From Lentilactobacillus farraginis DSM 18382 = JCM 14108 (GTDB lineage Bacteria; Bacillota; Bacilli; Lactobacillales; Lactobacillaceae), in assembly GCF_000583655.1 (NCBI RefSeq), contig NZ_BAKI01000004.1, positions 1-64,000 on the forward strand: a DNA stretch of 64,000 nucleotides, written 5' to 3'. The notes under the pieces were generated by a model. It saw only the letters and a list, made by a program, of their open reading frames with translations, ran no database searches and was not told the DNA's origin. Shown in pieces: positions 59,550 through 61,394 of this stretch (the first letter of the stretch is position 1; each line of letters starts with the position of its first letter). Position numbers and translations under genes: made by a program.

Positions 59550-60149
59550 TTACAAGTGAGAACGACTGCCTTGATCACTACTATCCAAAATAGTGGTACT
59601 GGTATTCGCCAGGCCACCGCGTTTGCGCAGATCGGCCAGCGGGGTCCCCAATAAGTGGTTGATCTCGGCATTCAATGCCGCACCGTGGCTGACAATCATC
59701 ACGTTTTTTTGCGGATTGCTACGAACAATCTCGATAATTGCGGGTGTCATTCGATTAATCACATCAACAAAGCTCTCACCGCCGATTTCGGTTGGATCGT
59801 AAAGAACGGGGTGGTTCCGAAAATTCTCAAATTCTTGGGGATACTGTTCTTTGACGTCGGTAAACTTCATTCCTTCCATCTTTCCCAAATCAAATTCTTC
59901 CAGTCGGGACATCAATGAAATAACGGGATGACTTTTTAATCGTCGTGCAATCGTTCCAGCTGTGATTCTGGCTCGTTTGATCGGGCTGGCATAAATATGA
60001 TTGAAAGGTACATTTTGAAAATGATCCGCTAGTTGTTTCATTTCACGATAACTTTCAGAAAGCAGCGGTGAATCACCTCCGGCCCCCTGGTAACGGCTTT
60101 CGAGATTCCATTCGGTTTTTCCATGTCGTACAAAATATAATCGCGTCAA
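59550..60149 (-). CDS. Histidine phosphatase (phosphoglycerate mutase-like)
   Basis: 199 residues from the TTG behind GGAGG, giving the family start MTRLYFVRHGKTEWN. Catalytic RHG near 8-10, Arg in SPIKRARITAGT, Glu in EFDLGKMEG and the second His in IVSHGAALNAEI. dPGM-type fold but short, so a broad phosphatase more likely than a glycolytic mutase. Upstream in a row with the TPR gene and recD2. Confidence 0.9.
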   Translation of the reverse strand: MTRLYFVRHGKTEWNLESRYQGAGGDSPLLSESYREMKQLADHFQNVPFNHIYASPIKRARITAGTIARRLKSHPVISLMSRLEEFDLGKMEGMKFTDVKEQYPQEFENFRNHPVLYDPTEIGGESFVDVINRMTPAIIEIVRSNPQKNVMIVSHGAALNAEINHLLGTPLADLRKRGGLANTSTTILDSSDQGSRSHL

Positions 60150-60220
60150 AAGCCATTCCTCCCATATGTTAATCACTCACTATTATGACAGCATTGGCGA
60201 GGAAATTCAAAGAAATTCAG

Positions 60221-60331
60221 TGTGCGAAGCAAAACGGTTAATGTCCGGAATATAAGGCGTGAATCTTGAAAATCCTGGGCCTGGATTTTTAAGATTTATC
60301 CCTTATATGGAGCGGCATTGTTTTGCGCAGC
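60221..60331. repeat. Long imperfect palindrome (about 110 bp)
   Basis: Left arm from GTGCGAAGCAAAACG through ATATAAGG, GAATCTTGAAAATCC; right arm GGATTTTTAAGATTTATC, CCTTATAT, to TTTTGCGCAGC. The arms match over most of their length with an apex at CCTGGGCCTGG (about 60275). No gene overlaps it. Shape and size recall dispersed palindromic repeats of lactobacilli, but only one copy is in this window. Confidence 0.6.
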
Positions 60332-60473
60332 AGTCCTCAAACCAACAACCCCACTTTCCGCTTCAAATCCCAATATTACAGTGGTAAGCTTATTCTAATC
60401 AGCTTTTCTTTTAACGGGCAGCCCCCTTAGGATTGCTTGTCAAAAGAAATCCCATTGTTAGGAGGAAATGTCG

Positions 60474-61394
60474 ATGCTCCAGACGCTTTTATTTGCTTTG
60501 ATTCCAATTATCGTCACGATTGGAATTGGTTACTTTGCTGCTTATCGAAATGATTTTGACGACCATGACAGCCAGCAGTTCGTTAAACTGGTCATGAATT
60601 ACGCCTTACCTTTCAGTGTTTTTGCCGGAATTTGGGGAACGCCCAGAAAAATTATTATCGCGGATATTCCCTTAGCCGGCTGGCTTTTGGCAAGCATGGT
60701 CGGCTGCTACGTTATCTTAATGATCGCTTATCGGTTCGGCTTTCGACTGCCATTGGATTTATCGGCGCTTAGATCGTTGTCGGTCGCCGATCCATCAGTT
60801 CCCTTTATCGGGTCGGCTATTCTGCCCCTGTTATTTGGCGATCAAGTCAGCGCCATTACCATCGGCCTTTGTACTTTAATTATTAACATCCTGCTTTTAC
60901 CGGCAGTTTTCGCTTCCTTGGCAGAAGAAGGCGAAGTCACTTCTATCAGCGAACGGCTCATCAGCACGTTTAAAAAGCCGTTAGTTCTTAGTGCCCTGCT
61001 GGGATTTGTCATTGCCTTGGCTGGTTGGCAGATGCCCGCGGAACTGGAGAATACCTTTATGGTTCTTGGTAAAGTTGCCGGTGGATTGGCACTGTTTTCC
61101 ATTGGGATTGTCCTTTTTACAAGAAGAATTACAATCAGTCCCTCTATTGGGATCAGCGTTTTTGCCAAAAACGTTCTCTTTCCGTGTGTTATCTGGTTAA
61201 TCATGCTGGCAGTCCACGCACCGGCCGGTATTATCAATATCGTCGTTTTAACCTTGGCAATTCCAACAGCTACCATGCCAACAACTTTGGCCATTCAATT
61301 TAAAATCAAAGAATCGGAAATTGCCTCCATTCAATTTTGGAGCACGGTTTGCTCGTTTGTCAGCATGCCAATCTTCATGTGGTTGATCGGCTAA
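60474..61394 (+). CDS. AEC family transporter
   Basis: 306 residues. GGAGG lies eight bases before this ATG; the ATG at 60468 is only two bases from it. About ten membrane helices in the auxin efflux carrier layout: FALIPIIVTIGIGYF, MNYALPFSVFAGI, VADPSVPFIGSAILPLLF in the first half; PTATMPTTLAIQF in the second. Bacterial members export or import malate, other organic acids or related solutes. Followed by its own terminator. Substrate unknown. Confidence 0.88.
   Translation: MLQTLLFALIPIIVTIGIGYFAAYRNDFDDHDSQQFVKLVMNYALPFSVFAGIWGTPRKIIIADIPLAGWLLASMVGCYVILMIAYRFGFRLPLDLSALRSLSVADPSVPFIGSAILPLLFGDQVSAITIGLCTLIINILLLPAVFASLAEEGEVTSISERLISTFKKPLVLSALLGFVIALAGWQMPAELENTFMVLGKVAGGLALFSIGIVLFTRRITISPSIGISVFAKNVLFPCVIWLIMLAVHAPAGIINIVVLTLAIPTATMPTTLAIQFKIKESEIASIQFWSTVCSFVSMPIFMWLIG

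Follow-up and report, generated by a model that had tools for sequence, protein, structure and literature searches.

The imperfect palindrome that lies upstream of the AEC-type transporter gene in the window (the whole 64,000-nucleotide stretch of Lentilactobacillus farraginis DNA that was analyzed) is almost certainly one unit of a repeat family. The family is apparently undescribed and belongs to a known kind (bacterial hairpin repeats). It occurs in numerous lactic acid bacteria, and probably in other Bacilli as well, so that it would be class-wide if the matches in those Bacilli hold. We lean toward reading it as a dispersed, nonautonomous hairpin repeat of the ERIC/BOX/REP kind that would be recognized as a folded single strand and whose new units would enter at or beside existing ones.

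The repeat unit at the window site

An earlier note on this DNA had described a palindrome at positions 60221 to 60331, and we found the inverted repeat there, with the claimed arms (ATATAAGG/CCTTATAT and AATCTTGAAAATCC/GGATTTTTAAGATT) and the loop TGGGCCT. The full unit is slightly longer, running on the + strand from AGTG to TCCT over 119 nt (60219 to 60337), and it matches the covariance model R1 described below with 129.5 bits (alignment A1). All of its parts are given here for the + strand. The 5′ side of basal stem 1 (60223 to 60225) pairs with 60330 to 60332 (A1 columns 5-7/113-115), and T-A is swapped there for A-T or C-G in other units. Stem 2 (5′ side, 60229 to 60235) pairs with 60320 to 60326 (columns 11-17/103-109), and stem 3 (5′ side, 60240 to 60246) pairs within 60312 to 60319 (columns 22-28/94-101); each has two-sided changes in 5 of its 7 pairs. 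Between these two stems, the 5′ strand carries a conserved 4-nt bulge of the GGTT type (60236 to 60239, unpaired A1 columns 18-21), whose context, CGGTTAG, is present in other genera too. The long apical stem 4 (5′ side, 60250 to 60275) forms 25 pairs with 60283 to 60308, 14 of them with two-sided changes, includes G.U-dominated columns, and is closed by the 7-nt apical loop TGGGCCT (60276 to 60282). The 3′ half (60283 to 60337) supplies the 3′ sides of the apical stem and of stems 3, 2, and 1 and finishes in GCAGTCCT. The element had been placed between a phosphatase gene and a transporter gene, and both neighbors were confirmed: a histidine phosphatase superfamily gene (PF00300; 59550 to 60176, − strand) lies divergently to its left and an AEC-type Mem_trans gene (PF03547; 60468 to 61394, + strand) to its right.

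Intergenic position, and nothing else, speaks for a plain terminator or a palindrome arisen by chance, a reading with practically no remaining probability that is refuted by the missing T run, the stability of the fold, and the covarying copies, of which there are dozens. As the earlier note had observed, there is no T run, and we found 0 terminator-like sites in 60100 to 60500. The 151 nt from 60200 to 60350 fold as RNA with −49.4 kcal/mol, far more stably than shuffled sequences (mean, −32.5; z = −4.93), and 0 of 200 dinucleotide shuffles fold as well. The same note had considered the palindrome too long for a plain terminator, a judgment supported by its many further copies and their strong covariation.

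Structure, covariation, and strand asymmetry

The consensus is a long hairpin of 42 pairs with fixed interruptions, namely, a 3-by-3 internal loop near the base, the 4-nt GGTT-type bulge, a second internal loop, and the 7-nt apical loop. Among 63 distinct units from the window's own genome, standard pairs make up 97.9% of the pair cells, 25 of the 42 pairs have two-sided changes, and covariation scores 0.449, compared with 0.167 after shuffling and no more than 0.115 with slid partners. Across genera, 97.0% of cells are paired, 40 of 42 pairs have two-sided changes, and the covariation score is 0.845 versus 0.208, in an alignment (A4; 102 matches, 100 distinct) that was fitted to the R1 structure and so leans toward it. 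Strong covariation across units thus suggests that the element is structured, as had been proposed. Hairpin-templated correction can also match the two arms, however, so covariation alone is no proof of RNA function.

The two strands are not equivalent. G.T pairs outnumber A.C pairs by 262 to 11 in the own genome and by 167 to 28 in Lentilactobacillus hilgardii ATCC 8290 (G019; genus g1, as is the window's genome); with the four G.U-dominated columns removed, the counts are 63 to 11 and 71 to 28, respectively. In G094, which belongs to the same genus (g12) as Lacticaseibacillus chiayiensis (G174), they are 107 to 5. Such favoring of one strand is not expected of a purely double-stranded DNA palindrome; it fits RNA and single-stranded DNA alike and cannot tell them apart.

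At least 95% of pairs are kept in 59 of the 63 real units versus 9.4% of random half-swaps, showing that the two arms travel together. Three of the 4 units that fall below 95% resemble joins of halves from different units. The unit at C127:95368 has a 5′ half 97% like a C119 unit and a 3′ half 93% like a C107 unit.

Copies and arrays

The assembly searched was the window's own Lentilactobacillus draft (2.84 Mb in 129 contigs), in which the window unit, used as a DNA query, found 53 places, itself counted. R1, built from 63 full units (A1; one more unit, of 114 nt, was excluded), gave at least 114 raw matches with 150 of 1,709 candidates scored. Removal of 27 opposite-strand matches at the same places left at least 87 units, some of them weak or cut (the lowest at 29 bits), in 51 arrays, comprising 25 single, 17 double, 8 triple, and 1 quadruple. 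The palindrome is therefore neither a single copy nor without conservation in sister strains, since there are dozens of copies and sister sites are occupied. The earlier suggestion of a nonautonomous repeat agrees with these many copies and with the occupation of the same site in a sister species.

Units in a row stand head to tail, in one orientation per array, with starts about 121 to 126 bp apart and 4 to 7 nt from TCCT to the next AGTG in the rows read. They are 114 to 122 nt long and usually start with AGTG, AGAG, AAGG, TGAG, or TAAG. Four draft contigs (C60, C84, C92, and C116) start or stop within a unit or array, so the arrays probably break draft assemblies. Runs of N are seen in arrays of L. 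hilgardii contig C113 near 744500 and 757700. With contig-edge and nearly full cases excluded, we counted 18 fragments with a preserved 5′ end against 2 with a preserved 3′ end; the count may be biased because the loci were found by similarity.

Two variants were also observed in the own genome. The sequence at C123:11986-12107 forms an almost perfect palindrome and is matched by R1 on the two strands (89.8 and 78.1 bits). Its 3′ half is similar to the 5′ half of another unit in reverse complement, so that it looks like a head-to-head join of two 5′ halves. A second subtype, with ends like AGAGTG...CACGTTT, has copies at C98:25807, C103:18061, C109:24081, C115:27004, C116:14692, and C116:21789; three of its copies share a tail with GGTAATAATCGTGATTA, and by eye the C98 copy lies near a TnpB-looking open reading frame.

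Array form differs between genera. Lentilactobacillus repeats whole units. Printed rows of G094 and of Secundilactobacillus mixtipabuli (G180) have a complete unit that is often followed by repeats without the 5′ arm, which retain the apical hairpin and the 3′ arm and carry a tail of the type GGGCGTAAAG; some rows in these two genomes consist of complete units only. The loss of the 5′ arm from these later repeats is the opposite of the 5′ fragments found in Lentilactobacillus.

Docking on stop codons and gene orientation

Genes were taken from a simple longest-ORF caller, whose starts and short ORFs are unreliable, and an array was counted as docked when the upstream sense gene ends −3 to +6 nt from its 5′ end. 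Among arrays with a sense gene upstream, 19 of 32 were docked in the own genome (51 arrays), 10 of 12 in L. hilgardii (20 arrays in 1.2 Mb after removal of weaker ones), and 17 of 20 in G180 (23 arrays in 20 regions chosen from the best matches). The pooled figure is 46 of 64, versus 3 of 39 in a mirror control in which an antisense downstream gene ends at the array's 3′ end (Fisher P = 5e-11). Where the available space could be computed, we observed 11, 6, and 13 docked arrays against 2.1, 2.0, and 2.4 expected under uniform placement. In most of the exactly docked G180 cases, elements starting with AG complete a TAG codon and those starting with AA complete TAA. At C122:20528, the element-free gene of L. 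hilgardii stops at the same codon, which shows that docking is more than truncation. At C127:95368, the own gene stops five codons before its relative, and there the element may have truncated it.

Some REP elements have been proposed to protect mRNA or to slow ribosomes. By analogy, the unit could be a 3′-untranslated-region RNA element under selection, a hairpin after the stop codon that would protect the mRNA from 3′-to-5′ decay or slow the terminating ribosome. The docking itself, in which TAG or TAA is completed by the first bases of the element, argues for such a role, as do the predominance of sense upstream genes (32 of 49, 12 of 20, and 20 of 23 in the own genome, L. hilgardii, and G180, respectively, counting arrays for which an upstream gene was called) and the covariation and G.U bias of that strand. 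In G094, however, 32 of 41 arrays (with 3 weaker ones set aside) have an antisense gene on their left, yet the same strand keeps its G.U bias; 17 of the 49 arrays in the own genome do not follow a sense gene; and the unit content of a site mostly changes (see below). The window's array is among those 17, its unit being flanked by a divergent gene pair and not docked on a stop codon. We consider this explanation rather unlikely, although it is the strongest of the alternatives weighed here.

Of the other 9 arrays in G094, 3 are docked on a stop codon. By eye, CCTCC (the reverse complement of a ribosome-binding site) occurs within the last 24 nt before the array in 9 of the 41, a weaker form of it occurs in 3 more, and several arrays begin directly after a T run. 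Given the antisense majority in this genome, no single rule of insertion or function holds. We detected no replication-strand bias in G094 among the 93 of 135 raw matches that were listed and typed, with the origin assumed at base 1 (first half, 23 + and 25 −; second half, 28 + and 17 −; P = 0.21, or P = 0.51 when counted as 83 arrays).

Window site in relatives and turnover of units

In G003, a sister genome with flanks about 78% identical, the window site is occupied by two full units plus a third that is cut at GCTTCAAATCC, the sequence that comes after the right flank of our unit (60338 to 60359, + strand). The left flank of our unit (60192 to 60218, + strand) meets it at a junction of AAAGAAATTC with AGTGTGC that is identical in L. 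hilgardii, where it is followed by an unrecognizable decayed stump; the sole R1 match in the 8-kb locus of that genome (11.7 bits) lies at a different place. In the sister genome G012, the left flank reaches GGAATTC and no element follows. The site is thus common to three of the four genomes compared, and its content is different in each.

We then compared the own array sites with 1.2 Mb of L. hilgardii. Some were occupied in both genomes by unequal numbers of units; others were cut short in L. hilgardii (C118:20256 and C127:68878) or had no recognizable unit there (C122:20528, C127:51437, and C127:93189), and two were masked by N runs. At ten shared sites, the best same-site identity averaged 0.762 versus 0.730 (standard deviation, 0.018) with sites shuffled, a value reached by 3.8% of the shuffles, and site C99 retains a unit pair at 0.89. 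Same-site units are therefore slightly more alike than chance, indicating that the content is in part inherited at its site. On this comparison, sites mostly outlive the unit sequences that they carry.

Units on different contigs of the own genome are up to 98.3% alike, and none are identical; homologous exchange could by itself be the source of the turnover. Within rows, the outermost ends are more alike than when shuffled (0.903 versus 0.873; 0.06% of 5,000 shuffles as high), and the cores are not (0.711 versus 0.737; 1.6% as low, or 7.5% for adjacent units alone). Plain tandem duplication was rejected as the source of rows, as cores within an array are no more alike than shuffled ones.

A further alternative is a classical MITE whose imperfect terminal repeats would be recognized by a DDE transposase that belongs to a resident insertion sequence and cross-mobilizes it. 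The element's small size, its location between genes, its imperfect inverted ends, and its carriage on plasmids (see below) are all compatible with this alternative. We nevertheless judge it improbable, since no clear target duplication was visible by eye in the sites compared, whose flanks are only about 70 to 85% alike, and since, from general knowledge, DDE transposition does not require conservation of a whole hairpin with fixed bulges.

Distribution across genomes and plasmids

Of 151 genomes sampled from the family, 40 had R1 matches, the own genome included, and these fall in 16 of 40 genera (24 candidates scored per genome). Copy numbers can be high, with raw matches numbering at least 135 in G094, 58 in G021, 50 in G180, and 41 in G060 (150 candidates scored per genome, opposite-strand matches kept). 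A family-wide model, R2, with 12 candidates scored in each genome, found matches across the order in 48 of 295 genomes and 26 of 74 genera; of these 48 genomes, 30 come from families other than that of the window, and 8 of those 30 have at least 6 matches. At the class level, R2 matched 6 of 200 genomes, the own genome and five outside the order. The best matches in these five (48 to 65 bits) are weaker yet full length and have in common GCGGA, a (C)CGNTTAG-type bulge, and GCTGGA-type 3′ ends; in the loci read, neighboring units stand about 122 to 125 bp apart in three of the five genomes. On sequence likeness, they are probable relatives of the repeat family. One such Bacilli array (L382:1426-1618) starts three bases past a tRNA-Gln gene. 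Repeats of the form GAAAAGCGGA...GGAGCTGGAC are common in Bacillus genomes.

One nearly identical copy of 91 bits is carried on 83 plasmid records and is the sole copy in some R1-matching genomes. In the two inspected records, from Pediococcus and Listeria, the copy is found 3′ of a gene for a copY-type copper repressor and on the opposite strand; the 5′ end of the Pediococcus copy precedes the start of a P-type ATPase gene by about 20 nt. It was also present in 6 of 12 genome contigs tested, three of the six being titled Bifidobacterium. This nearly identical unit (loci L228 and L229 and the plasmids) has traveled between genera. Two Lacticaseibacillus paracasei plasmids (L230 and L231) differ between their PTS IID and DUF956 genes, where one has a single R1 match and the other has two. 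The window unit itself matched no plasmid, the plasmid copies being detected only when units of other genera served as queries, and neither phage records (queried with one unit) nor viral contigs (queried with one pattern) gave a match.

Known families and candidate enzymes

At the Rfam gathering score, there were 0 matches in 4 own loci, and permissive scans of 9 and 6 loci placed no repeat unit at that score. About 1.3 kb from a unit, L090:2912-3039 matches the Lacto-3 RNA of Rfam (Ref68) with 88.9 bits. The repeat family is not named in the open-license literature searched. Letters of a unit in a paper on virus-like particles were taken as a chance 13-letter match, and the papers containing letters of the Bacilli-type unit appear unrelated from their titles, among the matches listed.

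Neither a Y1 transposase nor a reverse transcriptase is retained as a partner, as the presence of neither tracks carriage: Y1_Tnp (PF01797) occurs in 8 of 21 carriers versus 7 of 19 genomes with no R1 match, and RVT_1 (PF00078) in 5 of 21 versus 6 of 19, noncarriers being defined by R1 (three of them, G027, G034, and G064, match R2). The high-copy genome G094 has no match to either domain. The 13 carriers with no Y1_Tnp match are G094, G021, G022, G008, G153, G157, G180, G169, G087, G066, G102, G132, and G019. A REP- or REPIN-like element moved by a RAYT (Y1) transposase would share with our units dispersed, imperfect intergenic hairpins. We hold it to be very improbable, as those 13 of 21 carriers have no PF01797 match and as units of 114 to 122 nt (about 119 nt at the window) differ from a palindrome with a GTAG or CGTC tag whose length is 20 to 40 bp, the size given for REPs in PMC3733652, which adds that REP termini often supply TAG stop codons. 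The same paper groups bcr1 (Bacillus cereus group), RUP, NEMIS, and EFAR, all noncoding and dispersed, as bacterial MITEs. Our units resemble these by description, have imperfect inverted ends, and have no Rfam match.

ERIC/IRU elements of enterobacteria are described in PMC2267715 as imperfect palindromes of 127 bp, intergenic, present in many copies, and able to form one long stem-loop. The likeness of the 119-nt unit to them is one of form, and it differs from them in its head-to-tail rows of near-constant period and its spread over many Gram-positive genera. Two further comparisons concern modular form and folding. BOX of Streptococcus pneumoniae is a modular intergenic repeat with tandem inner modules, boxA-(boxB)n-boxC. 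Our arrays do not have that make-up. Rows in Lentilactobacillus consist of repeated whole units; those in G094 and G180, with a complete unit followed by repeats of the apical hairpin and 3′ arm, are a partial likeness. The attC sites of integrons are imperfect hairpins with retained bulges that are recognized as one folded strand, and our units are likewise imperfect hairpins with retained bulges, but no gene stands between tandem units.

Discussion

We infer that movement by recognition of a single strand is the best-supported mechanism for this repeat. New units, copied from other arrays, would enter at or beside existing units by trans-acting insertion, by homologous exchange, or by both, and the machinery would recognize the folded top strand as single-stranded DNA or RNA. 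Recognition of the top strand would account for the persistence of the bulges, for the G.U bias, and for the coevolution of the arms. In Lentilactobacillus, the units furthest 3′ would decay, leaving 5′ fragments. Several observations weigh against this reading: the sites inspected gave no convincing target-site duplication, same-site units are slightly more alike than chance, left genes in G094 are mostly antisense, and the later repeats of G094 and G180 have lost the 5′ arm instead of keeping it. A bolder form of the proposal, which we advance tentatively as possible but doubtful, is a Bacilli-wide mobile hairpin that is recognized in its folded single-stranded form by an enzyme of neither the Y1 nor the reverse transcriptase type, that docks at the edges of functional elements, and that builds modular arrays by inserting next to itself. 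In this proposal, stop codons would be its main targets, with the element supplying their last two letters. As a secondary effect, hairpins in 3′ or intergenic leaders may influence neighboring mRNAs.

The repeat forms a large structured family of food and gut bacteria that was not found in Rfam or in the literature searched. Its position could alter the mRNA ends of many genes, and the number of units, which varies between relatives, is a possible strain marker. Together, stop codon docking and strand-specific covariation open the long-standing question of the multiplication of ERIC, BOX, and similar hairpin repeats to experiment in laboratory lactobacilli, which are safe to handle.
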